DNA of 64,000 nt. Origin: Micromonospora narathiwatensis. GTDB taxonomy: Bacteria; Actinomycetota; Actinomycetes; Mycobacteriales; Micromonosporaceae. The stretch spans positions 3,968,001-4,032,000 of the forward strand of contig NZ_LT594324.1 of the NCBI RefSeq assembly GCF_900089605.1. Reading direction: 5' to 3'. A program made the translations under genes and the position numbers. The number at the start of each line of letters is the position of its first letter. The stretch's first letter is position 1. Under the pieces are notes generated by a model. That model saw only the letters and a list, made by a program, of their open reading frames with translations. It was not told the DNA's origin and made no database searches. Positions 1,949 to 16,705 of the stretch are shown here, piece after piece.

Positions 1949-3019
1949 CTACCGCACTCGGTGCGCGGCGCGGGTGGTGAGGTCGGCCAGCGCCGACCGG
2001 GCGGGCTCGGTCAGCGGGGTGCGGTCCAGCGCGGCGCGGGCGTGGTCGACCCGGGACCGGATCATCCGCTCGACCCGTTCCCGCGCGCCGGTGGCCTCGA
2101 TGATCGCCCGCACCTCGGCCGCGCCACCGTGGTCCAGTTCGGGGTCGCCGACCAGGGCGCGCAGCCGCGCCGCCCGGCCAGCATCGGCCGCCTGGCGGGC
2201 CAGCGCCATCAGCACCGTCGGCTTCCCCTCGCGCAGGTCGTCCAGGTTGGACTTGCCGGTCACCGTCGGGTCGCCGAAGACGCCGAGCAGGTCGTCGCGG
2301 AGTTGGAAGGCGTCCCCGAGCGGGTCGCCGAAGTCGGCCAACGCCGCCACCGTGTCGGGGTCGGCCCCGGCCAGGGCGGCGCCGATCTGCACCGGGCGGG
2401 TCACCGTGTAGCGGGCGGTCTTCATCCGGACCACCGCGAGCGCGCTCGCCACCGAGCCGTCGCCGGCGGCGGCGACCACGTCCAGGAACTCCCCCGCGAT
2501 CACCTCGGCCCGCATCCGCGCGAAGACGGCGAGACCGCGCCGGACCCGGGCGGGGTCGAGCCCGCAGTCGTGGAACATCTGCGCCGACCAGGCAGCGCAG
2601 AGGTCGCCGCAGAGCAGGGCGGCGTCGCGGCCGTACGCCTCCGGGTCACCGCGCCAGCCGGAGCGGGCGTGCAGGTCGGCGAAGATCCGGTGCACCGAGG
2701 GCTGGCCGCGCCGGCGGTCGCTGCCGTCGAGGATGTCGTCGTGGATCAGGGCGAAGGCGTGGAACAGCTCCAGCGCCGCCGCGGCGGCCACGATCGGGGC
2801 GTTGTCGGGACCGCCGGAACCCCGCCAGCCCCAGTAGCAGAAGAGCGGTCGCAGCCGCTTGCCACCGGCGAGGACGAACCGGTGCAGTACGGCATGGACC
2901 GCCCGCGTGCCGTCGTCGTCCGACCGACCCGGCTGCCGCTCGCGCAGGAACGCGGCGAGCGCGGCGTCGAAGCGGTCCCGCAGCAGGGCCGGGTCGGTCG
3001 GTGCGACGGTTACGGTCAT
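1949..3019 (-). CDS. Polyprenyl diphosphate synthase
   Basis: A trans-isoprenyl diphosphate synthase (356 residues) that condenses isopentenyl diphosphate onto allylic diphosphates. The family marks are intact: GGKRLRP near residue 52 for IPP binding, the first Asp-rich motif DDILD at 94-98 after HAFALIH, and the second Asp-rich motif in FQLRDDLLGVFGD followed by GKSNLDDLREGK. Ala90 and Leu91 sit just before the first motif, but chain length cannot be read reliably from this. The start at 3019 overlaps the EboF-like stop by 4 bases (ATGA), so the two are probably translationally coupled. Because it shares an operon with a UbiA-type prenyltransferase, it probably supplies that enzyme's prenyl donor (inference). 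Confidence 0.93.
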   Translation of the reverse strand: MTVTVAPTDPALLRDRFDAALAAFLRERQPGRSDDDGTRAVHAVLHRFVLAGGKRLRPLFCYWGWRGSGGPDNAPIVAAAAALELFHAFALIHDDILDGSDRRRGQPSVHRIFADLHARSGWRGDPEAYGRDAALLCGDLCAAWSAQMFHDCGLDPARVRRGLAVFARMRAEVIAGEFLDVVAAAGDGSVASALAVVRMKTARYTVTRPVQIGAALAGADPDTVAALADFGDPLGDAFQLRDDLLGVFGDPTVTGKSNLDDLREGKPTVLMALARQAADAGRAARLRALVGDPELDHGGAAEVRAIIEATGARERVERMIRSRVDHARAALDRTPLTEPARSALADLTTRAAHRVR

Positions 3020-4410
3020 GGCGCCTCCGAGGCCAGTCCGGCGAGCTGGAGCAGCAGTGCCTTCACCTCGGTGGCGGCGAACCGGTCCCGGGCCGCCGAC
3101 GGGTCGGAGCAGAGCAGCACCGGACCGTCGGCCGGGTCGGCGGGCAGCCGCCCGTGCGAGCCGCGGACCGCCCGCGCCCCGGCGTCCAGCCCGACCACGC
3201 TCATCAGGTAGCGCAGGCCGAGCTTCTTGCGGGCCAGCGCCACCGCCGCCCGGCGCTTCGCGGCGCCCGGGGCCGCCGGGTCGAAGAACAACTCGGCGGG
3301 GTCGTAACCCGGCTTCCGATGAATCTCCACGAGGCGGGCGAAGTCGGGCGCGCGGGCGTCGTCGAGCCAGTAGTAGTAGGTGAACCAGGCGTCCGGCTCG
3401 GCCACCAGCACCAGCTCGCCGGAGCGCTCGTGGTCCAGCCCGTACCCGGTCTGACCGGCGGCGTCCAGCACCTCGGCCACCCCGGGCAGCCCGGCGCAGA
3501 GCTTGGCCACCGCCGGCACGTCGGCCGGGTCCTTCACGTACACGTGCGCCACCTGATGGTCGGCGACGGCGAAGGCCCGCGACGTCCACGGATCCAGGTA
3601 TTCCATCCCGGCCTGCGTGTAGACCCGCAGCAGCCCCTCGGCGCGCAGCAGCCGGTTGACGTCGACCGGGCGGGAGACGTCGGTGATGCCGTACTCGGAG
3701 AGCGCCACCACGGTGGCGTCCCGCTCCGCGGCGGCGTCCAGCAGCGGGGCGAGCACGGCGTCCAGCTCGGCCGCCGCCGCGGCGGCCTCCGGCGAGGACG
3801 GGCCGAAGCGTTGCAGGTCGTAGTCGAGGTGCGGGACGTAGACCAGGGTCAGGTCCGGCGCGTGGTCGGCGAGGATCCGCTCGGCGGCCCGGCAGATCCA
3901 CCGGGACGACGGCAGCCCCGCCCCCGGCCCCCAGTAGGTGAACAGCGGGAAGGTGCCGAGCGCCCCGGTGAGCACGTCGTGCAGCTCGGGCGGGTCGGTC
4001 CAGCAGTCCGGTTCCTTGCGCCCGTCGGCGTGGTAGATCGGTCGCGGGGTGACCGTCCAGTCCACGTCGGCGCCCATCGCGTACCACCAGCAGACGTTGG
4101 CCACCCGGTAGCCGGGCTCCACCCGGCGGGCCGCCTGCCACAGCTTCTCCCCGCCGACCAGGGCGTTGTGCTGCCGCCAGAGCAGCACCTCGCCGAGATC
4201 CCGGAAGTACCAGCCGTTGCCGACGATCCCGTGGCCGGCGGGCGGCTGGCCGGTGAGGAAGGTGGACTGCACCGAGCAGGTGACCGCTGGCAGCACCGTA
4301 CCCAGTTCGGCGGCGAACCCGGCCTCGGCGACCGCGCGCAGCCGGGGCATGTGCGCCAGCAGGCGCGGGGTCAGCCCCACCACGTCGATGACCACCAGTC
4401 GCCTGCTCAT
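3016..4410 (-). CDS. EboF-like alkaline phosphatase-superfamily phosphodiesterase
   Basis: A 464-residue type I phosphodiesterase/nucleotide pyrophosphatase protein. Asp9 (VVIDVVG) fits the first metal ligand and Thr44 in LPAVTCSVQSTFLTG fits the nucleophile position of NPP enzymes; GHGIVGNGW and YVPHLDYDLQRFGP follow as expected. Where many NPPs have SDHG, this protein has LSEYGI, so one metal-site position differs from the general family. There is no signal peptide or membrane segment. It corresponds to EboF of ebo clusters. ATGA overlaps join it to the polyprenyl synthase after it and to a mini-ORF before it. The substrate is unknown; a phosphorylated or phosphodiester-linked cyclitol or prenyl intermediate would fit the neighbours. 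Confidence 0.85.
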   Translation of the reverse strand: MSRRLVVIDVVGLTPRLLAHMPRLRAVAEAGFAAELGTVLPAVTCSVQSTFLTGQPPAGHGIVGNGWYFRDLGEVLLWRQHNALVGGEKLWQAARRVEPGYRVANVCWWYAMGADVDWTVTPRPIYHADGRKEPDCWTDPPELHDVLTGALGTFPLFTYWGPGAGLPSSRWICRAAERILADHAPDLTLVYVPHLDYDLQRFGPSSPEAAAAAAELDAVLAPLLDAAAERDATVVALSEYGITDVSRPVDVNRLLRAEGLLRVYTQAGMEYLDPWTSRAFAVADHQVAHVYVKDPADVPAVAKLCAGLPGVAEVLDAAGQTGYGLDHERSGELVLVAEPDAWFTYYYWLDDARAPDFARLVEIHRKPGYDPAELFFDPAAPGAAKRRAAVALARKKLGLRYLMSVVGLDAGARAVRGSHGRLPADPADGPVLLCSDPSAARDRFAATEVKALLLQLAGLASEAP

Positions 4411-4511
4411 GCCGTCACCTCGCTCCGCTCGGCACCGCCATGAGCCACCACAGCGCCGCGCCGATGATTCACTCGCTGACGCTCGCTCATGCCGTCACCT
4501 CGCTCCGCTCG
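4405..4511. repeat. Direct repeat and dispersed element at gene junction
   Basis: A 27-base sequence occurs perfectly at 4405-4431 and 4485-4511, 80 bases apart. Between them, around 4463-4491, lies a 29-base box that recurs with two mismatches at 32,633-32,661, and the first 20 bases of the direct repeat recur with one mismatch at 32,609-32,628. Both sites sit exactly across stop/start overlaps of consecutive minus-strand genes. Confidence 0.8.
4407..4490 (-). CDS. 27-residue mini-ORF built on a dispersed repeat
   Basis: ATG 4490 opens a 27-codon frame whose ATG overlaps the EboE-like stop (ATGA) and whose TGA overlaps the EboF-like ATG (ATGA). The peptide begins MSERQRVNH and ends GAERSEVTA, the same last residues as the upstream EboE-like protein. 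The cause is a perfect 27-base direct repeat at 4405-4431 and 4485-4511. A close relative occupies the same kind of junction at 32,611-32,661 (MSARQRANH to SEVAA). There is no known family. It could be a translated linker that couples the two flanking genes, a real small protein, or a relic of repeat insertion. The start is clear only from the overlaps. Confidence 0.5.
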   Translation of the reverse strand: MSERQRVNHRRGAVVAHGGAERSEVTA

Positions 4512-5686
4512 CCCGCCGTCGCGGCCAGGCCGAGCCCGACCAGCTCGTCTCGGGCGAAGGCCAGCTCGGCGGCGATCCCGCCGGCCAGCTCCGCGTCGGT
4601 GCCCGGCCGCCGCGCCGCCGGCAGCACCCCCCAGGTGTACGTCTCGACGTCGAGGTGGTCACAGCCGGCGGCCGGACCGGCGTACAACGCGGCGAGGGCG
4701 GCCCGCAGCACCGGCACGGTGGACCGCAGCGGCGGCTCGGGCGGCGCGTGCAGCGGCACGTGGTAGTGCACCCGCCACGGCCCCGGCAGCCGCGTGTCGA
4801 GGGCGGCGTCCAGGTCGTCGGCGGCGTACGCCGGGTCGGCCGGGTCGGTGGCGCCGGCGCAGCCGGCGGCCCGCGTCTGGTGCAGGAAACGCGGCTCGAC
4901 CCAGCGGCGCAGCGCCTCGGCCGAGCCGTCCGGATCGTCCGCCTCGACGGCCGCGGAGACCTGCACCTTGACCACCGGCAGCCCGGCGGCCCGCAGTCGA
5001 CCCAGCGCCTCGACCGGTTCTTCCCAGGCGCAGGCGAGGTGCGCCAGATCGAGGCACATCCCGAGCCGGTCGGTATCCATGGCTGACAATATCTCACGTG
5101 CTTGTCCCGTGGACTCCACCACACAGCCCGGTTCCGGCTCGAAGCCGACCCGTACGGTCCGGCCGGTCGCCCGCTCCACCTCGGCCAGGCCGGCGGCCAA
5201 CTCGTCGAGGCGCCGCCGGGCGGCGTCGGCCCGTTCGGCGTCCCACGGCGTACGCCAGGCCAGTGGCAGGGTGGAGATCGAGCCCCGGGCCGCGTCCTCG
5301 GGCAGCAGGTCGGCCAGCACCCGGGCCAGGTCCAGGGTGTACCCGAGCCGCTCCGGGGTGGTCCAGTCCGGGTGGTACACCGCGCCCTTGACCACCGCCG
5401 CCTGGAAGGCCGCGTACGGGAAGCCGTTGAGCGTGACCACCTCCAGCCCGCGTACGGCCAGCTCGTGCCGGAGCCGGCGGCGGGCCGCCGGGTCGGCGGC
5501 GAGCGCGGCGGCCACCGGGGCGGCCAGCCACAGCCCCAGCCCCAGCAGGTCGGCGTCGAGCGCCCGCCGGACCGGCAGCGCGTACGTGTCGAGCTGGGCG
5601 AGGATCCCGGCCAGGTCCTCGGCCGGGTGCACGTTGGTGCAGTAGCCGAGGTGGACGGTGCTGCCGTCGGCGTGGCGCAGGCGCAT
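4487..5686 (-). CDS. EboE-like sugar phosphate isomerase/epimerase-type TIM barrel
   Basis: A 399-residue protein of the EboE type, a metabolite traffic/TIM-barrel family related to AP_endonuc_2 sugar isomerases. It opens with HLGYCTNVHPAEDL, which is typical of EboE proteins. Later strands include EVVTLNGFPYAAF, the metal-site segment VRVGFEPEPGCVVEST, and MCLDLAHLACAW. The start at ATG 5686 shares one base with the TatD-like stop (TGATG). Longer in-frame starts exist upstream but would run into the TatD gene, so they are unlikely. The C-terminus (AGERSEVTA) is part of the direct repeat that also ends the following mini-ORF. In cyanobacteria ebo genes act in export of a pigment precursor; the biochemical role of EboE is not known. 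Confidence 0.85.
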   Translation of the reverse strand: MRLRHADGSTVHLGYCTNVHPAEDLAGILAQLDTYALPVRRALDADLLGLGLWLAAPVAAALAADPAARRRLRHELAVRGLEVVTLNGFPYAAFQAAVVKGAVYHPDWTTPERLGYTLDLARVLADLLPEDAARGSISTLPLAWRTPWDAERADAARRRLDELAAGLAEVERATGRTVRVGFEPEPGCVVESTGQAREILSAMDTDRLGMCLDLAHLACAWEEPVEALGRLRAAGLPVVKVQVSAAVEADDPDGSAEALRRWVEPRFLHQTRAAGCAGATDPADPAYAADDLDAALDTRLPGPWRVHYHVPLHAPPEPPLRSTVPVLRAALAALYAGPAAGCDHLDVETYTWGVLPAARRPGTDAELAGGIAAELAFARDELVGLGLAATAGERSEVTA

Positions 5687-6537
5687 CACTCGCCCCCACG
5701 CAGGATGGAGTTGCCGGCGAAGGTCGGCGCCGCCACGTCCAGGTCGGTCAGGTCCAGCCGACCGGACTGGCCGTAGAACTCCACCGGGTTGCGCCACAGC
5801 ACCCGGTCCACGTCGTCCTCGCCGAACCCGGCGAGCAGCATCGCCTCGCCGGTGGCCCGGGTGAGCAGCGGGTCGGAGCGCCCCCAGTCGGCGGCCGAGT
5901 TGACCAGCATCCGCTCCGTCCCGTACGTCTTCAGCAGCTCGACCATCCGCGGCGGCGACATCTTGGTCTCCGGATAGATGGAGAAGCCCAGCCAGCAGCC
6001 GGTGTCCCGGACCAGCTTCACGGTGACCTCGTTGAGGTGGTCGACCAGCACCCGGCCGGGGTCGATGCCGGACTCGGCGACCACCGCGAGGGTGCGTTCG
6101 ACGCCGCGCGCCTTGTCCCGGTGCGGGGTGTGCACCAGGGCGGGCAGGTCGTGCCCGACGGCCAGGGCGAGCTGTCCGGCGAGGGCGGCGTCCTCGGCCG
6201 GGGTCATCGAGTCGTAGCCGATCTCGCCGACCGCCACCACGCCGTCCTTGTCCAGGTAGCGCGGAAGCAGGTCGAGCACCGGGCGGCAGCGCGGGTCGTT
6301 GGCCTCCTTCGGGTTCAGCGCCACGGTGGCGTGGTGCCGGACGCCGAACTGCCCGGCCCGGAACGGCTCCCAGCCGATCAGCGAGTCGAAGTAGTCGACG
6401 AACGAGTCGACGCTGGTGCGCGGCTGGCCGAGCCAGAACGCCGGCTCCACCACCGCGCGTACCCCGGCGGCGGCCATCCGCTCGTAGTCGTCGGTGGTCC
6501 GTGAGGTCATGTGGATGTGCGGGTCGAAGATGCGCAT
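5686..6537 (-). CDS. TatD-like metal-dependent hydrolase (EboB-like)
   Basis: A 283-residue amidohydrolase-fold protein of the TatD type. The N-terminal metal motif is MRIFDPHIHMTSR (HxH), followed by VAVGEIGYDSMTP with the metal-site Glu, ALVHTPHRDKARG with His ligands, VLVDHLNEVTV and the C-terminal LVNSAADWGRSDP with the catalytic Asp. In ordinary TatD the first motif is DTHCH; the DPHIHMTSRT version is typical of the hydrolase found in ebo clusters (EboB). It is cytoplasmic. Start ATG 6537 shares one base with the EboA-like stop (TGATG), which rules out longer starts. The substrate is unknown. Confidence 0.88.
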   Translation of the reverse strand: MRIFDPHIHMTSRTTDDYERMAAAGVRAVVEPAFWLGQPRTSVDSFVDYFDSLIGWEPFRAGQFGVRHHATVALNPKEANDPRCRPVLDLLPRYLDKDGVVAVGEIGYDSMTPAEDAALAGQLALAVGHDLPALVHTPHRDKARGVERTLAVVAESGIDPGRVLVDHLNEVTVKLVRDTGCWLGFSIYPETKMSPPRMVELLKTYGTERMLVNSAADWGRSDPLLTRATGEAMLLAGFGEDDVDRVLWRNPVEFYGQSGRLDLTDLDVAAPTFAGNSILRGGE

Positions 6538-7157
6538 CACGCCTCCCTGGCGGTGGTCGGGTGCGAGCCGGCGCCGAGCCGGCGCAGCAGATCGGTGGCG
6601 TCGGCGGGTATGGTCCGGCCGGCCGCGTGGCGCTCGGCGGCCAGCGCGGCCAGCATGGTCGCCAACTCGCCGTCCGCCCGGCCGTCCAGGTCGTCCACGA
6701 CCGCCAGCGGTACGCCGGTGAAGACGCACTTGAGCACGGCCTGCCGCCAGGCCGGCTGTTCCAGGTGCCGGGCGTACGGGCCGAGCGCGGCGGCGATCAG
6801 CCGGGTGTCGTTGGTGCGGATCGCGTCGTGCAGCAGCGGCACGCACTCGGCCCCGATCGGCAGCAGCGGCAGGGCACGCAGCACGGCCCGCTTCTCGGCG
6901 GCGTCACCCTGCCGGTAGAGGGAGTCGGCCAGCACCGCGTGGGCGGCGGGCAACGCGGTGAGCAGCAGCGCCCGGGCGGCCTCGTCGACCGTCCAGCCGG
7001 GCGGGTCGGCCAGCGGCTCCCGACCGCACCGCCGGGCGGCGGTGGCGAAGAGGCGTGGGATCGCCGTGGGCTCGGTCGCCACGCGGCGCAGGGCCGCGTC
7101 CAGCCACCGCGGATCGGGTACGCCCCGCAGCGCGGCGCGCAGTCGGTCGGGTGTCAT
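6537..7157 (-). CDS. EboA-like protein
   Basis: A 206-residue, Ala/Leu/Arg-rich, mainly helical protein with no catalytic motif that I can recognise. Its place between the TIM barrel and the TatD-like hydrolase matches EboA, and the segments SLYRQGDAAEKRAVLRALPLLP and AIRTNDTRLIAAALGPYARHL fit the EboA-domain family. EboA is of unknown function everywhere; the HEAT-like helical look would suit a scaffold or adaptor role (inference). It starts at ATG 7157, 26 bases after the preceding gene, and is coupled to the TatD-like gene by a one-base overlap. Confidence 0.78.
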   Translation of the reverse strand: MTPDRLRAALRGVPDPRWLDAALRRVATEPTAIPRLFATAARRCGREPLADPPGWTVDEAARALLLTALPAAHAVLADSLYRQGDAAEKRAVLRALPLLPIGAECVPLLHDAIRTNDTRLIAAALGPYARHLEQPAWRQAVLKCVFTGVPLAVVDDLDGRADGELATMLAALAAERHAAGRTIPADATDLLRRLGAGSHPTTAREA

Positions 7158-7183
7158 GCTGTCTCCCCTCTGGTGGCAGGTGC

Positions 7184-8152
7184 TCAGCCACCGCCTTCGC
7201 TCTGCGGACCGTTACGAGCACCGGCGGCCCGCAGGAATTCGATCGACCGGGCGGCGACGGCGGGCGCGGCGTGCGAGTGCCGGGGCAGTTCCACGGCCAC
7301 CAGCCCGCGGTAGCCGGCGTCCGCGAGAGCGCGCAGCACCGGCGGGAAGTCGATCTCGCCGGTGCCGAACTCCAGGTGCTCGTGCACGCCCCGGCGCATG
7401 TCGTCGATCTGCACGTTGACCAGGTGCTCGGCGACCGCCGCCACGCAGTCGGACACCGGCCGGGGCTCCAGGCAGCGGCAGTGTCCGATGTCGAGGGTGA
7501 CGCCGAAGCCGGGCGGCGCGCCGAGCGCGTCCCGCAGCCGGCGCCAGCCGGCGATATCCTCGACCAGCATCCCCGGCTCGGGTTCGAACCCGAGCGGCAC
7601 GCCGGCCGCCTCGGCCTCGGCGCAGACGGTGGCGCAGCCGGCGACGAGCCGGTCCCAGGCGACGGCCTCCGGCACCTCCGGTGGTCGTACGCCGGCCCAG
7701 CACGAGACCGCCTCCGCGCCCAGGTCCGCGCCGATCCGTACGGCCCGGCGGAGGAACTCGATCCGCAGCGCCGGATCGTCGTGCAGCAGGGTCGGGGCGT
7801 GTTTGTGCCACGGGTCGAGCAGGTAGCGGGCCCCGGTCTCGATCACCACGGCCAGGCCGAGCGCGGCCAGTCGGCGCTGCACGGCGGCCACCCGACGGGC
7901 CAGCCCCGGCCCGAACGGGTCCAGGTGGTCGTGGTCCAGGGTGAGCGCGACCCCCTGGTAGCCGAGGTCGGCCAGGACGGTGAGCGCGTCGTCGAGCCGG
8001 TGGTTGGCGAAGCCGTTGGTCCCGTACCCGAAGCGGAGCCCGGCCGGGTCCGGCAGCCCCCCGCGCCCGGCCGGCGCGGCCCCGGCGTCCGCCCCCGTTC
8101 GCGCGACGCCGGCGACCCGGTCCCGTGCGGACGGTCGCGGGGGGCTGGTCAT
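7184..8152 (-). CDS. Sugar phosphate isomerase/epimerase family TIM barrel
   Basis: A 322-residue AP_endonuc_2/xylose isomerase-like protein. The first about 40 residues are a low-complexity Ala/Gly/Arg extension, then the barrel begins at LRFGYGTNGFANHRLDDAL. Metal-site strands are visible: LGFEPEPGMLVED (Glu), FGVTLDIGHCRCLEP (Asp/His), VQIDDMRRGVHEHLEFGTGEIDFP (Asp/His) and VAVELPRHSH (Glu). The overall pattern is like hydroxypyruvate isomerase and IolI. ATG 8152 overlaps the UbiA stop by 4 bases. With the EboE-like protein and the isomerase at 735-1745 it is the third TIM-barrel isomerase-like protein in this run. The substrate is unknown. Confidence 0.87.
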   Translation of the reverse strand: MTSPPRPSARDRVAGVARTGADAGAAPAGRGGLPDPAGLRFGYGTNGFANHRLDDALTVLADLGYQGVALTLDHDHLDPFGPGLARRVAAVQRRLAALGLAVVIETGARYLLDPWHKHAPTLLHDDPALRIEFLRRAVRIGADLGAEAVSCWAGVRPPEVPEAVAWDRLVAGCATVCAEAEAAGVPLGFEPEPGMLVEDIAGWRRLRDALGAPPGFGVTLDIGHCRCLEPRPVSDCVAAVAEHLVNVQIDDMRRGVHEHLEFGTGEIDFPPVLRALADAGYRGLVAVELPRHSHAAPAVAARSIEFLRAAGARNGPQSEGGG

Positions 8153-9096
8153 GTCGGCGACACCAGTCGAGCCAGGCGGCGGCCGAGCGGGGCGGCGGCC
8201 GCGACGGCGAGACCGAGCACCCGGGCACCGGCCCGGGCGGTCAGCGCGCCCTGCAACGCCGGCAGCCCGGTGATGCCCGCTCCGACGGCGGCGCGTACCC
8301 GGGCCGGTGACGGGTCCGCGAGCACCCGGGCCTGCGCCGACCCGTAGCGGGTGGCGTAGCCGGCGGCGAGCGCGGCGGGCACCGGGTCGGTACGCCCCAG
8401 CGCGGTGGCGGCGACCAGCGCGGTGCCGGCGAGGGTGGCCCGGGGCAGCCGCCGGTCGGCCCCGGAGACCTCGCGGCGGGACAGCGCGGTGACGGTCCAG
8501 GTGTGCGCGGCCACGGTCAGCGCCGCCGGCAGCGCCCGGACCAGCCCGTGTGTGCTCGAGGAGGCACGGCCGGCTCCGCGCGTCGCGCTCCGGGCTGCGG
8601 GCCAGGAACTCCGACTCGCCGACGATCGGCGGCGGCCGGGATCGCGGGTCGGGCCGGGGCTCGCGCCGAGCAGCACGTCCAGGCCCCGACAGGCGGCCAT
8701 CACGGCGGGACCGGCGGCGGTGTTCTTGGCGAGCAGGTCGTACCCCCAGATCGCGGCGGCGAGCGGGACCGCGACGGCGGTGGCCCGCCGGCCCCCGGCG
8801 GCGCGGGCGACGGCGAGCCCGGCGGCGGTCAGCCCGGCGGCGACGCCGAACGCGGCGACCGGGTGGACCCGGCCGGACGGGATCGGCCGCTCGGGGCGTT
8901 CGACCGCGTCGAGCCGGCGGTCGGCCCAGTCGTTGGCGGCCATGCCGGCCCAGTAGAGCAGCACCGACGCCCCGGCCAGCGCGGGCGTACGCCGGTCCAG
9001 CGCGCCGGCCGCCGCCGCGCCGGCCACCACGTCCCCCGGTACGGAGAGCGCGGCCGGCGCCCGGACCAGCTCGGCGAGAACGGCCAGCCGGCTCAT
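8149..9096 (-). CDS. SCO3242-type UbiA prenyltransferase (EboC-like)
   Basis: An intramembrane aromatic/cyclitol-type prenyltransferase of 315 residues with Ala/Leu-rich transmembrane helices throughout. The first Asp-rich motif is clear, NDWADRRLD followed by ERPERPIPSGRV, and a second conserved stretch is WGYDLLAKNT to MAACRGLDVLLGA. It matches the actinobacterial SCO3242 family, the counterpart of EboC, and would transfer a prenyl group from a polyprenyl diphosphate to an acceptor in the membrane. A Ser/Arg/Pro-rich stretch of about 41 residues after VLLGA breaks the helical pattern and looks like an in-frame insertion (8540-8661). The start ATG 9096 overlaps the inositol-phosphate synthase stop (ATGA). 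The acceptor is not known. Confidence 0.87.
   Translation of the reverse strand: MSRLAVLAELVRAPAALSVPGDVVAGAAAAGALDRRTPALAGASVLLYWAGMAANDWADRRLDAVERPERPIPSGRVHPVAAFGVAAGLTAAGLAVARAAGGRRATAVAVPLAAAIWGYDLLAKNTAAGPAVMAACRGLDVLLGASPGPTRDPGRRRSSASRSSWPAARSATRGAGRASSSTHGLVRALPAALTVAAHTWTVTALSRREVSGADRRLPRATLAGTALVAATALGRTDPVPAALAAGYATRYGSAQARVLADPSPARVRAAVGAGITGLPALQGALTARAGARVLGLAVAAAAPLGRRLARLVSPT
8540..8661. repeat. Probable 122-base in-frame insertion within the UbiA gene
   Basis: The stretch encodes about 41 Ser/Arg/Pro/Gly-rich residues between VLLGA and RALPAALTVAAH of the prenyltransferase, in a place where the family has a membrane helix boundary. It contains the unit GCTCCG twice in CGCGCGTCGCGCTC-like sequence. 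It reads as an inserted small element that preserved the frame. I cannot find a second copy in this window. Confidence 0.4.
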
Positions 9097-10241
9097 CGCC
9101 CGGCTCCGGCGTGCAGCCCGGCGACGAAGTCCCGCAGCAGCGCCCACTGCTCGGCCAGCGCGTGGGTGGGCGCGTCGAGCGGGTCCTTGAAGAAGAAGGC
9201 CAGTTCGGCGAGGGGACCGTGGCGGCCGGCGGCGTGCGCGGCGGCGGTCAACCGGGCCAGGTCGAGCACCAGCGGGGCGGCCAGCGCCGAGTCGCAGCCG
9301 TGCCAGGTGAACTCCAACCGCATCCCGGTGCCGAGAAAACCGGCGAAGGTGACCAGGTCCCAGGCGGTCTTGAAGTCGCCGAGTTCCGCCACGTACTCGA
9401 TCCGGGTGCCGCCCTGCGGGACGTAGCCGAGCGTCTCGCCGAGCACCCGCTGCTTGCTGCCCACCTTGGCGGCGTTGGCGGCCGGCTCGGCGAGCGTCGC
9501 GCCGTCCCCGCCGCCGAGCAGGTTCACCCCGGACCACGAGCGCACCGCCAGGTGCCGCATCGCGAACATCGGCGCGAGCACCGACTTGACCAGGGTCTCC
9601 CCGGTCTTGCCGTCGTGCCCGGCGTACGGCAGGCCCCGCTCCTCGGCCAGCGCCGCCAGCGCCGGCAGCCGGGCACCGGTCGACGGGGTGAAGTCCACGT
9701 ACGGGCAGCCGGCGGTGAACGCCCCGTACGCGTACAGCGAGCTGGCCGGCAGCACGTCGGCGGGGCCGGCCAGCGCGTCCCGCAGCGCGGCGAGGTCGTG
9801 GTGGGCCGGATGCGCGGCGGCGGCCGGTTCGGTGGCCGAGACGTTGACCACCACCACCCGGTCCAGCGCGTGCCGGGTCCGGAATTCGGTCAGGTCGCGG
9901 GCCACGGCGGCGGCGCGCTCGGCCTGGGTGCCCCCGGTCGGTGCGGCCCGCAGCGCCGCCTCGACGTCGGCGAGTTCCCCGGCCAGGGCGTCCACCAGCC
10001 GGCCGGGCAGCACCCCGGCGGCGGCGAGCGCCTCGGCCCGCTTGGTGAGCGGGGTGGCCGCCACGTCGTGGCCGCCGAGGACGAGATCGGCGAAGGCCGG
10101 CAGGGCGGGCCCGCGCAGGTCGGGCAGCTCGGTGACGCAGCCGGTCGGACCGGTGAGCCCGGCCCGCAGGGCCAACGCCCCGACGATGCTGGTGGTCGCG
10201 ACCGAGCCGCGCGCTCCCACCAGCCAGACACCCGTACGCAT
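9093..10241 (-). CDS. Inositol-3-phosphate synthase family protein
   Basis: A 382-residue NAD-dependent myo-inositol phosphate synthase-type cyclase (glucose 6-phosphate to inositol phosphate in known members). The N-terminal Rossmann motif is WLVGARGSVATTSIVGA; the active-site lysine region HDGKTGETLVKSVLAPMF, the GVNLLGGGDGATLAEP segment and FTWHGCDSALAAPLVLDLARL are all present. It groups by context with the synthase beside SCO3242-type prenyltransferases rather than with the housekeeping synthase for mycothiol or phosphatidylinositol. In ebo clusters of cyanobacteria this slot holds EboD, a dehydroquinate-synthase-like cyclase. It probably starts the ebo transcription unit, since the 260 bp before it are noncoding and full of inverted repeats. 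Confidence 0.9.
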   Translation of the reverse strand: MRTGVWLVGARGSVATTSIVGALALRAGLTGPTGCVTELPDLRGPALPAFADLVLGGHDVAATPLTKRAEALAAAGVLPGRLVDALAGELADVEAALRAAPTGGTQAERAAAVARDLTEFRTRHALDRVVVVNVSATEPAAAAHPAHHDLAALRDALAGPADVLPASSLYAYGAFTAGCPYVDFTPSTGARLPALAALAEERGLPYAGHDGKTGETLVKSVLAPMFAMRHLAVRSWSGVNLLGGGDGATLAEPAANAAKVGSKQRVLGETLGYVPQGGTRIEYVAELGDFKTAWDLVTFAGFLGTGMRLEFTWHGCDSALAAPLVLDLARLTAAAHAAGRHGPLAELAFFFKDPLDAPTHALAEQWALLRDFVAGLHAGAGR

Positions 10242-10501: not shown

Positions 10502-11707
10502 TCAGGCGGCCAGTTCGGCCAGCGCGGGCTCCACCTCCGTCCAGGTGGCCAGCTCGGCCGAGCGGGTCACCGCGTCGAGCACGAGCTGGACCTGCAACGC
10601 GTCGGTGAACGACGGCGTCGGGTCGGCGCCGGTGGCGACCGCCTCGACGAAGTCGCGCATCTGGTGGGTGAAGGAGTGCTCGTAGCCGATGATGTGGCCG
10701 GGCGGCCACCAGGCCGACATGTACGGGTGGTCCCCCTCGGTCACCAGGATCCGGGTGAAACCCTGCTCGGCGGTGGGCCGGGTGGCGTCGTAGAACTCCA
10801 GCTCGTTGAGGCGTTCCAGGTCGAAGGCCAGGGTGCCGAGCGAGCCGTTGATCTCCACCCGGAGCGCGTTCTTGCGGCCGGTGGCGAACCGGCTCGCCTC
10901 GTACGTGGCCAGCGCCCCGCCGTCGAGCCGGGCGACGAAGACCGCCGCGTCGTCGACGGTGACCTCGCCCGTCGCCCGGCCGTTGCCGTCGGCCTGCGCG
11001 GCCAGGCCGCTCGACCCGGCCGGCAGCGGCCGTTCCTTGACGAAGGTCTCGGTCAGGGCGCTGACCCCGGTGATCCGCTGCCCGGTGACGTACTGGGTGA
11101 GATCGATGATGTGCGCGCCGATGTCGCCGAGCGCGCCGGAGCCCGCCTTGTCCTTCTGCAACCGCCAGACCAACGGGAACTGCGGGTCGATGATCCAGTC
11201 CTGGAGATAGGCCGCGCGCACGTGGCGGATCTCGCCGAGTCGACCGTCGGCGATGAACTGCCGCATCATGCTCACCGCGGGCACCCGGCGGTAGTTGAAC
11301 CCGCACATGGCGCGTATCCCGCCGGCTCGGGCCGCAGCGGCGGCGGTCGCCATCTGCCGGGCCTCCTCGACGGTGTTGGCCAGCGGCTTCTCGCACAGCA
11401 CGTGCTTGCCGGCGGCCAGTGCGGCGATCGCTATCTCGCAGTGGCTGTCTCCCGGTGTGCAGATGTCGACCACGTCGATCTCGTCGGACTCGACCAGTCG
11501 TCGCCAGTCCGTGGTGTGCCCGTCCCAGCCGAGCCGGTCGGCGGCGGCGGCCACCTTCGGCTCGTCCCGGCCGCAGATGAGCGCCATCCGCACCCGCGCC
11601 GGCAGGTCGTACACCCGATTCACGGTGCGCCACGCCTGGGAGTGCGCGGCGCCCATGAACGCGTAGCCGACCATGCCGACCCGCAGGACTTTGTCGTGAG
11701 TGGACAA
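10502..11707 (-). CDS. Gfo/Idh/MocA-family NAD(P)-dependent dehydrogenase
   Basis: A 401-residue oxidoreductase of the family that includes inositol 2-dehydrogenase (IolG) and glucose-fructose oxidoreductase. It has the N-terminal Rossmann fold ([18 protein letters not shown]), the DICTPGDSH strand, the diagnostic [11 protein letters not shown] motif with the catalytic Lys, and the C-terminal [18 protein letters not shown] segment with the catalytic Asp/His. It is cytoplasmic with no Tat signal, unlike Gfo. It lies 21 bases after the substrate-binding protein of the CUT2 importer and probably oxidises the imported sugar or polyol. Its substrate cannot be read from sequence; inositol is a reasonable guess given the neighbouring inositol-phosphate synthase. 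Confidence 0.92.
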
Positions 11708-11728
11708 GGTGGGTCTCCCCCCGTTGTG

Positions 11729-12781
11729 TCAGAACCCGAGCTTCAGGTAGTCGCTCGCGTTCTCCTTGGTGATCGTCTCGGAGGCGAGCACGATCTCCTT
11801 CGGAACCTGAAGCTCCACCAGGTCGGACATGCCCCGGTTCTGGCCGATCAGGCGGGCCAGCGAGATGGCCGAGGAGGCCATCGACGGGCTGTACGTGACG
11901 GTGGCCTTCAGGACGGTGTTGTCGGCCTGGATGTCCTCCATGGCCTTCTTCGACCCGGCGCCGCCGACCATGAAGAAGTCCTTGCGGTTGGCCTGGTTGA
12001 CCGCGGCGAGGACACCGATGCCCTGGTCGTCGTCGTGGTTCCAGATCGCGTCGATCTTCGGCAGCGCCTGGAACAGGCCGGTGGCCTCCTGCTGGCCCGA
12101 GTCGGCGGTGAACCTGGCCGCCCGCCGGTTGGCGACTTTCAGGCCGTACGAGCTGAGGGTGTCGGCGAAGCCCTTCGACCGCTCCTGGGTCAGCTCCAGC
12201 TCGTCCATCCCGGCGATCTCCCCGATGACCGGGTTGCTGACCCCCTTGGCCTTGAGCTGCTCGGCGATGTAGGTGGCGGCGGCCACGCCCATGCCGTAGT
12301 TGTCGCCCTTGATCTGGAGCCGGTAGGCCCGCGCGTCGGGGAAGGCCCGGTCCAGGTTGACCACCGGGATGCCGGCCTTCATCGCCTCCAGGCCGAACGC
12401 GTTGAGTTCCTTGCCGTCGTGCGGCAGCAGCACGATCACGTCGGGCTTCTGGGAGATCAGGGTGGACAGCGCCGCCCGCTGGGCCGCCGCGTCCGCGCCG
12501 GCCTCCACGGACTTCAGCTCCACGTCGGAGTACGCCCCGGCCTGCGCCTTGGCGTTGTTGGTGATCGCGGCGATCCAGCCGTGGTCGGCGGCCGGCGCGG
12601 AGAAGCCGATGGTCACCTTCTTGCCGGGCTCGCTGTTGCCGCCGGTCTCGGCGGCCTTGGTCTGGGCGGCGGTGGGCGCGGTCTCGTTGCTGGTGCAGCC
12701 GGCGAGCACGACGCCGGCGGAGAGCGCGGCTCCGCCGAAGAGCAGCCGGCGGCGCGACAGGTCGCGTCCCTGCGTTGTCAT
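11729..12781 (-). CDS. Sugar ABC transporter substrate-binding lipoprotein (CUT2)
   Basis: A 350-residue periplasmic-binding-type lipoprotein of the ribose/galactose (Peripla_BP_4) family. The N-terminus has a twin-arginine LSRRRLLFGG signal and a lipobox LAGC, so it is probably exported folded by Tat and anchored to the outer face of the membrane. TIGFSAPAADHGWIAAITNNAKAQ is the usual first strand, and DVIVLLPHDGKEL and GIPVVNLDRAFPD line the ligand cleft. It delivers a sugar or polyol to the permease at 12,874. Start ATG 12,781. The 92-bp gap before it, unlike the 4-base overlaps elsewhere, may hold processing or translation signals that raise its level. Confidence 0.93.
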   Translation of the reverse strand: MTTQGRDLSRRRLLFGGAALSAGVVLAGCTSNETAPTAAQTKAAETGGNSEPGKKVTIGFSAPAADHGWIAAITNNAKAQAGAYSDVELKSVEAGADAAAQRAALSTLISQKPDVIVLLPHDGKELNAFGLEAMKAGIPVVNLDRAFPDARAYRLQIKGDNYGMGVAAATYIAEQLKAKGVSNPVIGEIAGMDELELTQERSKGFADTLSSYGLKVANRRAARFTADSGQQEATGLFQALPKIDAIWNHDDDQGIGVLAAVNQANRKDFFMVGGAGSKKAMEDIQADNTVLKATVTYSPSMASSAISLARLIGQNRGMSDLVELQVPKEIVLASETITKENASDYLKLGF

Positions 12782-12873
12782 GACGGCCTCCTGGATGAGG
12801 TGGTGGGGTGAAAATGGGTGTGTTGAGCCCGGCCACCGTCGCTGTCGAGGTGGCCGCCGGTGTCGCGGTGAGA

Positions 12874-13971
12874 TCAGGTGGTGGTGGCCCGGTTACGCCG
12901 GAGGAACTGGGTGACGCTGCCGAACTGGACCTGCTGGACCAGGACGGCGGCGACGATGATGCCGCCCTTGACCATGTTCTGCGCCTCGGTGGAGAGGCCG
13001 TTGATGGCGAAGAGGTTGGTGATGGTGGAGAAGATGATCACGCCGAGCAGGGAGCCCACGATGGTCCCCCGCCCGCCGCTGAGCAGCGTGCCGCCGATGA
13101 TCGCGGCGGCGATGGCGTCCAGCTCGTAGAGGTTGGCCATGGCCGCCTGGGCTGAGGTGGCCTGCGAGGTGAGCATGATCGCGGCGATGCCGCAGCAGAG
13201 CCCGGAGAGCGCGTAGAGCATCAGGGTGTGCCTGCGGACGTTGATGCCGGCGAGCCGGGCCGCCTCCGGGTTGCCGCCGACGGCCACCGTACGCCGGCCG
13301 AAGGTGGTGCGGTTGAGCAGCACCCAGCCGGCCCCGACCACGGCGGCGAGGATGTAGACGAGCAGCGGGATGCCGAGCACGTTGGTGCTGGCGATGCCGT
13401 TGATGAAGCTGTCGTTGGAGACCTGGGTCTGCTTGTTGGAGATCTCGGCTGCCAGGCCCCGGGCCGCGACCATCATCGCGAGGGTGGCGATGAACGGCAC
13501 CAGCCGCCCGTACGAGATGAGCAGCCCGTTGACCAGGCCGACCCCCAGCCCGACGGTGAGCGCGGTGAAGATCATCCCGCCGGCGCCGTAGCTCTGGGTG
13601 GCGACCGTGGTGCACCAGACCCCGGCGAGCGCCACGATCGCGCCGACCGACAGGTCGATGCCGCCGCCGATGATCACGAAGGTCATCCCGACGGTGACCA
13701 CGCCGACCACCGAGGCGAGCTTGAGGATGGTGAGGGTGTTGCCCCACACCCAGCTCGCGTCGCCGTAGAGGTCCGGCCGGGTGAGGATGCCGATGACCAC
13801 CAGCACCAGCAGCGTGGCCAGCAGGCCGAGGTTGCGCCGGGCGCCCTCGCCTCCGTCACCGCGCCACCAGGAGAGCCGCGGCGCGTCGGACGTCGCGGGC
13901 TCGGCCGGAGGCGACTGGGCCGGCAGCCCCGCCGCCCGTTCCGGCGTCGCGGTAGGTGTCGTCTCGGTCAT
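12874..13971 (-). CDS. CUT2 sugar ABC transporter permease (RbsC-like)
   Basis: A 365-residue integral membrane permease of the ribose/xylose/inositol type. After about 45 polar residues there are eight to ten hydrophobic helices, beginning with NLGLLATLLVLVVIGIL. The family signature is present: VVTVGMTFVIIGGGIDLSVGAIVALAG, and later YELDAIAAAIIGGTLLSGGRGT. It forms the membrane channel for the lipoprotein and the ATPase. ATG 13,971 overlaps the ATPase stop by 4 bases. Confidence 0.94.
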   Translation of the reverse strand: MTETTPTATPERAAGLPAQSPPAEPATSDAPRLSWWRGDGGEGARRNLGLLATLLVLVVIGILTRPDLYGDASWVWGNTLTILKLASVVGVVTVGMTFVIIGGGIDLSVGAIVALAGVWCTTVATQSYGAGGMIFTALTVGLGVGLVNGLLISYGRLVPFIATLAMMVAARGLAAEISNKQTQVSNDSFINGIASTNVLGIPLLVYILAAVVGAGWVLLNRTTFGRRTVAVGGNPEAARLAGINVRRHTLMLYALSGLCCGIAAIMLTSQATSAQAAMANLYELDAIAAAIIGGTLLSGGRGTIVGSLLGVIIFSTITNLFAINGLSTEAQNMVKGGIIVAAVLVQQVQFGSVTQFLRRNRATTT

Positions 13972-15530
13972 GCCGGCGCGCCTTCCATGAGGGACCCCGC
14001 CATGACGAGGTCGAGCACGGTGTTCTCGTCGATTTCGCCGGCCGGCGCCTCGCGGACCACCCGGCCCTCCCGCATCACCAGCACCCGGTCGGCCAGGCCG
14101 AGCACCTCGGGCACCTCGCTGGAGACCAGCAGCACCCCGACACCGCGTGCGGCGAGGGCGCGGATGACCTGATACAGCTCGGCCCGGGCGCCCACGTCCA
14201 CGCCCCGGGTCGGCTCGTCGAGCAGCAGCAGCCGGGTGTCGCCGAGCAGCCACCGGCCGACCACCACCTTCTGCTGGTTGCCGCCCGAGAGGGTGCGCAC
14301 CGGTCGGCGTACGTCGCGGGGCCGCAACTCCAGGGACTCGGCGATCCGGTCCGCCTCGGCCCGTTCCCGCGCCGCGTCGGTGAAGCCGAGGCGGGCGTAC
14401 CGGCCGAAGGTCGCCAGGGTGATGTTGCGGTAGATCGGCTCGCCGAGCAGCAACGCCTGGCTCTTGCGCTCCTCCGGGGCCATCCCCAGGCCGGCCCGTA
14501 CCGCCGTGTCGACACTGCCCGGGCGCAGCGCGCGGCCACCCACCGTGACCGTCCCGGCCTGGGCGCGCCGCGCGCCGTAGATGGTCTCCAGCAGCTCGGA
14601 GCGGCCGGAGCCGACCAGTCCGGCGATGCCGACGATCTCCCCGGCCCGCACGGTGAGCGACACGTCCGCGAACTCGCCGGTCCGGGTCAGCCCGTCGACC
14701 CGCAGCAGCTCCGCGCCTTCGGGCTCGTCGGCCGGGCGCTCCGGGAAGACGTACTCGATGGTCCGCCCGGTCATCCGGGAGACCAGGTCGCGGGTCGGGG
14801 TGTCGCGGGCCGGCAGGTTCGCCGCGGTGGTCCGGCCGTCCTTGAGTACGGTGACCCGGTCGCCGATCTCGCGGATCTCCTCCATCCGGTGCGAGATGTA
14901 GATGACCGCGATGCCCTGCGCGGTGAGTTCCCGGATGATCCGGAACAGGTTGCCCACCTCGTCGTGGGCGAGCACGGCGCTCGGCTCGTCCATGATGATC
15001 AGTCGGGCCTCGTGGGAGAGGGCCCGGGCCATGCTGACGATCTGCTTGCCGGCGGCGGGCAGGTGCCGGACCAGCCGGCCGGGCGGGATCTCCGGATGCC
15101 CGAGCCGGGCCAGGATCTGCCGGGTCCGCCGGGCCATGTGGCCGCGACGGATGAAGCCGAACCGGCGCGGCTCGTGGCCGAGGAAGGCGTTCTCCGCCAC
15201 CGACAGGTCCTCGACCAGGTCGAGTTCCTGGTAGATCGTGGCGATCCCGGCGCGCATGGCGGCCTGCGGGTTGACGAGGTGCGCCGGCTCGCCGCGCCAC
15301 TCGACCTCGCCGGAATCCGGCCGGTGCACCCCGGCGAGCACCTTGATCAGCGTCGACTTGCCGGCGCCGTTCTGCCCGAGCAGGCAGTGCACCTCACCCG
15401 CGCGGACCTCCAGCTGCACCCCGTCCAGCGCGCGTACCCCGGGGAAGGTCTTGACCACGTCGGTGAGGCGCAGGACCACCTCGCCCGCGACGGCGTCGGC
15501 GGGCGCCTCCACCAGCGGCGCGTTCGTCAT
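13968..15530 (-). CDS. CUT2 sugar ABC transporter ATP-binding protein (RbsA-like)
   Basis: A 520-residue protein with two fused ATPase domains. The first has Walker A GQNGAGKST near residue 52, a YQELDLVEDLSVAEN Q-loop and Walker B LIIMDEPSAVL. The second has the degenerate Walker A GLVGSGRSE and a complete LSGGNQQK signature with LLLLDEPTRGVDVGA. One normal and one degenerate site is usual for RbsA/XylG/MglA proteins. Oddly, the first domain's signature reads LPAAGKQIVSMARA rather than LSGGQ-type, which is also common in CUT2 ATPases. It energises uptake of a monosaccharide or polyol. The start ATG 15,530 overlaps the ROK stop by 4 bases. Confidence 0.94.
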   Translation of the reverse strand: MTNAPLVEAPADAVAGEVVLRLTDVVKTFPGVRALDGVQLEVRAGEVHCLLGQNGAGKSTLIKVLAGVHRPDSGEVEWRGEPAHLVNPQAAMRAGIATIYQELDLVEDLSVAENAFLGHEPRRFGFIRRGHMARRTRQILARLGHPEIPPGRLVRHLPAAGKQIVSMARALSHEARLIIMDEPSAVLAHDEVGNLFRIIRELTAQGIAVIYISHRMEEIREIGDRVTVLKDGRTTAANLPARDTPTRDLVSRMTGRTIEYVFPERPADEPEGAELLRVDGLTRTGEFADVSLTVRAGEIVGIAGLVGSGRSELLETIYGARRAQAGTVTVGGRALRPGSVDTAVRAGLGMAPEERKSQALLLGEPIYRNITLATFGRYARLGFTDAARERAEADRIAESLELRPRDVRRPVRTLSGGNQQKVVVGRWLLGDTRLLLLDEPTRGVDVGARAELYQVIRALAARGVGVLLVSSEVPEVLGLADRVLVMREGRVVREAPAGEIDENTVLDLVMAGSLMEGAPA

Positions 15531-16705
15531 GACGCCTCTCCGAAAGCCAGGTCGCTGGCGAGCACCGCGGCCCCGGCCACCCCGGCGCGGGGACCGAGTT
15601 CGGACAGCACGACCGGCAGGTTTCCGGTGGCCAGCGGCAGCGAGCGGCGGTAGACCACGCTGCGGATCTCGGCGAGCAGGATGTGGCCGAGCTGGGCGAG
15701 CCCACCGCCGATCACGATCATCGACGGGTTGGTGAAGCTCACCAGGCCGGCCAGTACGCTGCCGACCCGCCGGCCACCGTCGCGGATGAGCTGGATGCAG
15801 GTGATGTCCCCCTCGATCGCCCCCTGCGCCACATCCAGCGCGGTCACCGCCCCCCGGGCGGTCAGTCGCTCGGCGAGCGCCGGGGAGACCCCGGCCCGGG
15901 CCGCCGCGGTGGCCTCCCGGGCCAGCGCCGCGCCGCTGAAGACGGCCTCGAGGCAGCCCAGGTTGCCGCACGAGCACATGGGACCGTTCGGGTCGACCTG
16001 GATGTGCCCTATGTCGCCGGCACACCCGTCGGTGCCCCGGTAGACCTCACCGTTGAGGTAGATGCCGCAACCGATGCCGGTGCCGATCTTGATGAGCAGG
16101 AAGTCGTCCACCGAGTGCGCGACGCCGCCGTGCCGCTCGCCGATCGCCATGATGTTGACGTCGTTGTCGACCACGGCCGGGCAGCCGTGCTCCCGGGTCA
16201 GCAGCTCACGGACCGGAAAACGGTCCCAGCCCGGCATGATCGGCGGCGAGACGGGCACCCCGTCCCGGAAGCTCACCGGCCCGGGCACGCCGATGCCGAC
16301 CGCGTCCAGCCGCTCGTACGCCCCGTCCACCTTGGCCTTGTGCAGCAGCTCGTTGACGCGCTGGAGGGTCACCTTCGGCCCGGAGCGGATGTCGGCGGAC
16401 TCGGCGTACGCCGCCACCGGTTCGAGCCGGCCGTTGATCACCTCGACGTCGATCGAGCTGGCGCCCAGGTCGACGGCGGCGAAGCGCAGGTGCGGGCTCA
16501 GCTCGACCAGCGTGGAGCGCCGACCGCCCCGGGAGGCGGCCAGCCCCGCCTCGGCCACGTAACCGAGGGCGACCAGGCGGTCCAGTTCGGCGAGGAGGCG
16601 CGGACGGGGCATCTGCAACCGGTCGCCGAGCTCGGCCCGGGACACCGCCCCCTCGTCCCGGAGCAGTCGTAGGAGCTGTACGTGCAGGGGATCCACTGTC
16701 CGCAC
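15527..16705 (-). CDS. ROK-family transcriptional regulator
   Basis: A 392-residue sugar-responsive regulator. Residues 1-65 form a winged helix-turn-helix (LLRLLRDEGAVSRAELGDRLQMPRPRLLAELDRLVALGYV). The ROK kinase-like domain follows with the FAAVDLGASSIDVEVI nucleotide-binding strand, GIGVPGPVSF, ATG-like IGTGIGCGIYLNGEVYRG, and the zinc-binding CSCGNLGCLEA motif. It is the first gene of the importer operon and probably represses it until the sugar or its phosphate binds. Two inverted repeats upstream (16,753-16,770 and 16,822-16,843) are candidate operators. Start ATG 16,705; a GTG a few residues upstream is less likely. Confidence 0.92.
   Translation of the reverse strand: MRTVDPLHVQLLRLLRDEGAVSRAELGDRLQMPRPRLLAELDRLVALGYVAEAGLAASRGGRRSTLVELSPHLRFAAVDLGASSIDVEVINGRLEPVAAYAESADIRSGPKVTLQRVNELLHKAKVDGAYERLDAVGIGVPGPVSFRDGVPVSPPIMPGWDRFPVRELLTREHGCPAVVDNDVNIMAIGERHGGVAHSVDDFLLIKIGTGIGCGIYLNGEVYRGTDGCAGDIGHIQVDPNGPMCSCGNLGCLEAVFSGAALAREATAAARAGVSPALAERLTARGAVTALDVAQGAIEGDITCIQLIRDGGRRVGSVLAGLVSFTNPSMIVIGGGLAQLGHILLAEIRSVVYRRSLPLATGNLPVVLSELGPRAGVAGAAVLASDLAFGEAS

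Follow-up and report, generated by a model that had tools for sequence, protein, structure and literature searches.

An ebo-type gene cluster of Micromonospora with an inositol-phosphate synthase and a TIM-barrel partner in the place of EboD

What stands in for the EboD cyclase in an ebo cluster that lacks it, and what would such a replacement mean for the product of the operon? The question is raised by eight consecutive minus-strand genes (positions 1949–10241) within a stretch of 64,000 nucleotides (the window; positions 3,968,001–4,032,000 of the 6.6-Mb single-contig genome of Micromonospora narathiwatensis), in which a gene of the inositol-3-phosphate-synthase family (Ino1) heads a set of ebo genes. 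The ebo operon was named in PMC5133447, which reports it from many phyla and some algal plastids and proposes an isoprenoid-cyclitol product; PMC6282210 proposes a cyclitol lipid carrier and tests the export role of the operon experimentally, Nostoc being the only organism for which this was done. An original prediction, made from the window alone, had described an ebo-type cluster with Ino1 in the slot of the dehydroquinate (DHQ)-synthase-like EboD. The cluster is a real, well-conserved variant of the operon, and on balance we favour the view that it represents a distinct and widespread form of ebo, in which Ino1 and a TIM-barrel partner supply the cyclitol head group as EboD alone does elsewhere.

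In transcription order the genes encode Ino1 (9093–10241; archaeal type, 382 amino acids, PF07994 and PF01658), which takes EboD's place; a UbiA-fold membrane prenyltransferase of the SCO3242 family, the counterpart of EboC (8149–9096; PF01040, NF045897); a xylose-isomerase-like TIM-barrel protein that accompanies Ino1, here called TIM (7184–8152; PF01261); EboA (6537–7157; NF035938, 160 bits, cut-off 50); the TatD-like metallohydrolase EboB (5686–6537, starting at the ATG of 6537 or the GTG of 6540; PF01026); the TIM-barrel protein EboE (4487–5686, starting at the ATG of 5686 or the GTG of 5689; NF035939, 408 bits, cut-off 250); the alkaline-phosphatase-superfamily protein EboF, with altered metal ligands (3016–4410; PF01663); and a short-chain polyprenyl diphosphate synthase (1949–3019; PF00348, with a DDILD motif). 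Pfam and NCBIfam matches uphold the eight names and coordinates first proposed, and the predicted overlaps of 1–4 bases are seen at five of the seven junctions, the other two being gaps of 26 bases (TIM–EboA) and 76 bases (EboE–EboF). No promoters were found, and two terminators were found against 0.9 in shuffled sequences. Because most of the listed Actinomycetota loci repeat the order Ino1–UbiA–TIM–EboA–EboB–EboE–EboF, we regard the cluster as more than a chance arrangement. EboA, EboB, EboE and EboF are encoded together in the window, as at most Actinomycetota loci, and the window EboB aligns with the EboB of EboD-type clusters at 43–59% identity. No EboD was found at the window locus, the genome having a single clear DHQ-synthase-family gene and a further sub-threshold match, both far away, and the cluster is therefore filed as a variant of ebo.

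The distribution of the two cyclases was read from a large set of neighbourhoods. Of 296 genomes drawn from across the phylum, 13 had an EboE above the cut-off and 14 an EboE match of any strength. The EboB profile (E-value 10−30) was matched at 90 places, spread over 85 of the 394 genomes sampled from the class and 24 of their 137 genera. We read the surroundings of these 90 places (the window and 89 others), of 5 genome loci outside the class, of 80 contig loci and of 22 plasmid stretches, EboB being present in 21 of the latter. Cyclases were typed with profiles built from seed sequences, and counts refer to the 164 full-flank loci with at least 5.5 kb on each side of EboB, leaving aside 30 short-flank loci (14 genome, 16 contig) and two loci in which no EboB was found (L121 and L143). 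Ino1 is present at 150 of the 164, EboD at 9, neither at 5 and both at none, in keeping with the mutual exclusion that the original prediction had named as its own check. All nine EboD loci come from other bacterial records (Azospirillum, Gloeothece, Aureibacter, two Deinococcus, Mycetohabitans, Ketogulonicigenium, Salipiger and Roseivivax), which carry neither Ino1 nor TIM. Among Actinomycetota no EboD was detected, and Ino1 occurs at 76 of 80 genome loci (TIM at 74) and, always with TIM, at 63 of 63 contig loci and 7 of 7 plasmid loci; Ino1 is also present at three of four haloarchaeal loci (TIM at all four, EboD at none), and the single Gemmatirosa locus has both Ino1 and TIM. The Ino1 form thus spans Actinomycetota, haloarchaea and Gemmatirosa, and Ino1 occupies the EboD slot across the Ino1-type loci as it does in the window.

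Several features of the sample bear on these counts. The 80 contig loci, found with a one-protein query, are mostly Micromonospora and are not independent; two of them (L073 and L074) lie on one contig of Micromonospora chalcea (NZ_MAGP01000143.1), with equal scores and opposite orientation, and represent a duplication or an assembly artefact. The cross-phylum set consists of plasmid records, of which 14 of 22 non-actinobacterial and 7 of 30 actinobacterial ones were read, so that EboD-type loci are judged on plasmids rather than on whole genomes; seven of the eight other non-actinobacterial records belong to the same species or strains as those read, and the remaining one is from Halomarina (26% identity). 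Of the nine EboDs found with the EboD profile, eight had served to build it, Salipiger alone being independent. Separately, a simple AroB query recovered all six EboDs among loci L122–L133, and in 94 actinobacterial loci no open frame above 35 bits had it as best match. Neither EboA nor EboE was detectable in the haloarchaeal clusters (none of four in each case), and three haloarchaeal plasmids (L122, L134 and L135) carry a reduced Ino1-type cluster of EboB, EboF, UbiA, Ino1 and two TIM barrels.

The history of the exchange was approached through unrooted trees, one of 48 EboB rows and one of 46 EboF rows, which show changes but not their direction. In both, well-supported branches force at least two changes of the cyclase label; the EboB of Gemmatirosa, an Ino1-type locus, is the sister of the EboD-type Deinococcus EboB (support 100/100). 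The reciprocal presence of the two cyclases and their repeated change are well supported within the sample. The UbiA of Gemmatirosa joins the actinobacterial UbiAs (95/86), and in approximately unbiased (AU) tests, which took in 30 of the 39 UbiA rows, its grouping with the Deinococcus UbiA was rejected (p = 0.011), while a single clade of EboD-type UbiAs was not (p = 0.61). In the Ino1 tree, Gemmatirosa falls with the Archaeoglobus fulgidus enzyme and haloarchaea, apart from the actinobacteria. The Gemmatirosa UbiA thus follows the cyclase and not EboB or EboF, which is suggestive of a UbiA that acts on the cyclase product. Ancestral clusters may instead have held both cyclases, followed by losses rather than exchanges, but no cluster with both was seen among the loci typed.

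The catalytic residues of the cluster Ino1 are intact. Its nearest relatives are Micromonospora proteins of 94% identity, and it scores 244 bits to the A. fulgidus myo-inositol-1-phosphate synthase (mIPS; PDB 1u1i), which it resembles over its whole length and at the catalytic positions, against 26 bits to Ino1 of Mycobacterium tuberculosis. The residues K274, K278, K306, K367, N255, D261 and D332 (A. fulgidus numbering), which we take to be catalytic, are kept in 30 of 30 aligned cluster Ino1s, and D259 is replaced by G or N. The window protein has both Pfam domains and the catalytic lysines of the mIPS family. Unlike the A. fulgidus enzyme, it is encoded within ebo, away from two further and distant Ino1 genes of the genome; a role in mycothiol synthesis was considered and set aside, as the window Ino1 scores only 25 and 26 bits against mycothiol-type Ino1 and those two genes lie far off in the Ino1 tree. 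The substrate of the cluster Ino1 may possibly be a sugar phosphate other than glucose 6-phosphate. Because Ino1 would make its cyclitol de novo, labelling with external myo-inositol could yield a false negative.

TIM goes with Ino1 and forms part of the cyclase exchange, a point absent from the original prediction: it is found at most Actinomycetota loci and at none of the nine EboD loci. Its predicted model (predicted local distance difference test score 89.9) resembles sugar-phosphate and ketose 3-epimerases; naming its reaction from structure was abandoned, as many sugar epimerases and isomerases score almost equally. In eight loci (L039, L061, L115, L139, L204, L210, L215 and L222) a single open frame matches both TIM and EboA, in line with the fusion of actinobacterial EboA to a xylose-isomerase-like domain mentioned as 'data not shown' in PMC5133447.

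The window UbiA passes the cut-off of NF045897, the 'SCO3242 family prenyltransferase' (360 bits, cut-off 260), and falls below that of the EboC family NF035940 (117 bits, cut-off 250); of four UbiAs from EboD-type clusters scanned with NF035940, that of Aureibacter passes and those of Azospirillum, Deinococcus and Salipiger fall below. Its family is named after the prenyltransferase of the Streptomyces coelicolor CDA antibiotic cluster, for which PMC3610822 lists, under neighbouring locus numbers, a transferase (SCO3242) and a myo-inositol phosphate synthase (SCO3243), a pairing of functions that matches the one in the window. The UbiA fold is confirmed by the model, and N55, D56, D59 and D63 of the first aspartate-rich motif are invariant in 42 sequences. 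No second aspartate-rich motif was found in the ebo UbiAs where we take it to lie in other UbiAs, E209 being the only conserved acidic residue past position 150 (98% of the 42 rows); because the fold and the family matches are clear, the protein is kept in the superfamily. Both by profile and by structure the closest relative is DGGGP synthase, and the M. jannaschii enzyme (PDB 6m31), with which the window UbiA shares 18% identity, differs from the ebo UbiAs in that they lack a conserved second motif. A hydrophilic loop of low model confidence spans residues ~148–186 (window positions ~8540–8655); it varies in length among ten aligned Micromonospora sequences, and the idea of a frameshift was dropped on these grounds.

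The last gene of the cluster has a narrower distribution. The best NCBIfam match of the window prenyl synthase is a farnesyl/geranyl diphosphate synthase family (307 bits, below the cut-off of 600), and same-strand relatives occur at 55 of 63 contig loci, mostly Micromonosporaceae, and at 7 of 80 genome loci. Two of these seven (L035 and L145) belong to the genus of the window and score 577–604, while the other five, together with the short-flank locus L192, score 51–136 and are not close relatives; they are dissimilar synthases in three family groups (f8: L028, L171 and L190; f88: L148 and L183; f7: L192). For the other 78 loci, where 5 same-strand prenyl synthases were seen, chance alone would give about 0.5, an estimate drawn from 99 such genes in 25 genomes (rounded sizes summing to 161.7 Mb) that include some of the positive ones and in which loci of one genus are not independent. 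Prenyl synthases beside ebo modestly support a prenyl diphosphate substrate. The support that the original prediction drew from this gene is weaker than proposed: the gene is not general to the Ino1 form and belongs mainly to Micromonosporaceae, although dissimilar synthases stand beside ebo in three further families.

The predicted trimming of the product by hydrolases is weakly founded, because EboF lacks the canonical metal ligands of alkaline-phosphatase-superfamily phosphodiesterases. Where the aligned phosphonoacetate hydrolase PhnA has the metal-binding motif DHG, EboF has EYG in 25 of 25 sequences of both ebo forms (the window protein and EboF of 24 other loci); the threonine, aspartate and histidine of the remaining motifs are kept.

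What the cyclase exchange means chemically we infer as follows. TIM would prepare a sugar phosphate or reshape the product, Ino1 would cyclise a sugar phosphate to a cyclitol phosphate, and the membrane UbiA would attach a prenyl chain to a hydroxyl of the cyclitol phosphate, much as its nearest structural relative, DGGGP synthase, does on a glycerol-phosphate lipid; EboA, EboB, EboE and EboF would then finish or handle the lipid, which may help secondary metabolites to leave the cytoplasm. EboA, EboB, EboE, EboF, UbiA and the proposed prenyl-cyclitol are common to this form and to the EboD-type operon of PMC5133447 and PMC6282210, from which the window differs in having Ino1 and TIM for EboD, a UbiA of the SCO3242 type and, in Micromonosporaceae, the extra prenyl synthase. 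The prenylated cyclitol put forward in the original prediction fits the data, but it was already in print for the EboD type, and only the Ino1 part of the proposal is new. The full version of the scheme, in which Ino1 with TIM is the equivalent of EboD, exchanged at least twice across bacteria and archaea, and both feed one conserved membrane lipid, a cyclitol or cyclitol phosphate ether-linked to a prenyl chain by a UbiA akin to DGGGP synthase, that acts as carrier or helper in metabolite export in actinobacteria, we advance tentatively as something short of an even chance; its export step is an analogy with scytonemin precursor export in cyanobacteria.

Secondary-metabolite genes do occur around some clusters. 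On some Streptomyces plasmids the Ino1-type cluster stands beside multicopper oxidases and genes whose ScyD/ScyE family was confirmed, and on others beside aromatic polyketide or nonribosomal peptide synthetase (NRPS) genes; a lone eboE lies among aromatic polyketide genes on one Streptomyces plasmid (L143, 14989–16167), and another plasmid (L132) has a polyketide set with several like-named neighbours and a full ebo set. A search for ScyE in 80 of the 85 EboB genomes placed 3 of the 31 full-length matches listed within about 7 kb of EboB, and a general link to ScyE was rejected as real but rare (2 of 80 genomes).

A number of observations weigh against the scheme. One is chemical: myo-inositol phosphate has no carbonyl on which a TIM-barrel epimerase could act. 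The UbiA–cyclase link depends on one informative case, Gemmatirosa, and is suggestive only, while the long-branched EboC of Aureibacter, an EboD-type locus, is placed on the Ino1 side in the free UbiA tree. Only 2 of the 26 genomes with full-length ScyE-family matches have one near ebo, and in Micromonospora the neighbours are sugar-transport genes and not a secondary-metabolite cluster. In Haladaptatus neither cyclase lies near ebo, and the plasmid concerned, the only replicon searched, carries no Ino1. Among the 80 Actinomycetota genome loci, Ino1 is missing at four (L029, L041, L147 and L157) and TIM at six (L041, L144, L147, L152, L154 and L187), which rules out strict Ino1–TIM linkage at each locus. 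The genomes concerned nevertheless speak for the pairing. In two of the four genomes without Ino1 at that locus (G128, L029; G571, L157) it is carried by a second ebo copy, and in the other two (G319, L147; G279, L041) an Ino1 of the cluster type is encoded elsewhere (355 and 348 bits); all six genomes without TIM at ebo have TIM elsewhere, although, as a point against, the matches outside ebo in G279 and G349 each have one in-frame stop. Only 6 bases separate TIM and the unlinked Ino1 in G279 (C26:352251–354275), and 4 kb in G319 (C3:128911–134986), with the two on the same strand and away from ebo in both genomes, an arrangement that resembles a movable pair.

The alternative that survives best is that the Ino1-type operon yields a different product, its shared genes being a kit for prenylation and handling joined to different cyclitols; we give this perhaps one chance in a handful or slightly better. 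Ino1 is not related to EboD, and the families to which the two enzymes belong use different sugar phosphates; the window Ino1 is also related to a synthase of a five-membered cyclitol phosphate (6k96, 48 bits), which suggests that other cyclitols are possible. The UbiA families likewise split by cyclase, as the window and Aureibacter proteins illustrate, and at position 22 of UbiA all 34 Ino1-type rows have D, while 7 of 8 EboD-type rows have N, although this difference at position 22 could stem from descent alone. On the other side stand the retention of EboA, EboB, EboE and EboF in both forms and the case of Gemmatirosa, where the cyclase is swapped on an EboB/EboF background near the EboD types, which favours an interchangeable input.

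It is distinctly less probable that UbiA prenylates an aromatic acid while a sugar branch of its own, such as a glycosyl-like decoration, is what Ino1 and TIM supply, with no prenylated cyclitol formed. EboC homologues farnesylate 8-hydroxyquinoline-2-carboxylic acid in vitro (PMC9235831, which also treats Saccharomonospora ebo clusters), and quinoline acids, not phenols or catechols, were the acceptors prenylated; this activity counts against a cyclitol acceptor and makes an aromatic one a possible alternative. The acceptor panel described there was, however, all-aromatic, the closest solved structure has a polyol-phosphate acceptor, and the tendency of UbiA type to follow cyclase type indicates, if weakly, that the acceptor is a cyclitol.

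Genes flanking the cluster (735–1745 and 10502–16705), all on the minus strand, look like a keto-sugar pathway. Downstream lies a second TIM-barrel gene and recurrent cluster neighbour, dTIM (735–1745; 600 bits to 2zds, titled SCO6571, and 159 bits to the 2-hydroxy-3-keto-glucal hydratase 8ro4), with same-strand relatives at 37 of 80 genome loci and 45 of 63 contig loci, and the cluster boundary may extend slightly to include it. Upstream are a Gfo/Idh/MocA dehydrogenase (10502–11707), levoglucosan-dehydrogenase-like but of uncertain membership (NF052479, 368 bits, below the cut-off of 650), found on the same strand at 56 of 63 contig loci, and a sugar ABC transporter (binding protein, permease and ATPase) with a ROK-type regulator (11729–16705; NCBIfam matches all below equivalog cut-offs), which is probably a unit separate from ebo. 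These neighbours are largely kept around ebo in Micromonosporaceae, where relatives of the dehydrogenase and of dTIM recur, and sugar-type neighbours are also present in Halocatena, Haladaptatus and Ketogulonicigenium, but the idea that the Micromonospora cluster belongs to uptake and oxidation of sugars or cyclitols in carbon metabolism, rather than to an export lipid, is very improbable, as the broader sample has a same-strand dehydrogenase at just 9 of its 80 loci, sugar breakdown has no use for a prenyltransferase or a prenyl synthase, and other loci, on Streptomyces plasmids, have secondary-metabolite neighbours.

The Ino1 form of ebo, the range over which it occurs, its pairing with TIM and the repeated change of cyclase appear to be new, none of them having turned up in the literature searched. 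The word inositol is absent from the main text of both PMC5133447 and PMC6282210, Ino1 is not mentioned in the passages of PMC9235831 on EboC homologues, and no open-access paper on Ino1 in an ebo cluster was found among the matches listed, which in three cases were the best 30, 40 and 12. If Ino1 with TIM and EboD share an output, the EboD slot has a second, unrelated enzyme solution, and this would narrow down the head group; Ino1 is, moreover, a far better understood enzyme than EboD. The Ino1 form is common, with EboB in more than a fifth of the class genomes sampled, and as it is present in Streptomyces too, the question of what ebo makes becomes approachable outside cyanobacteria.

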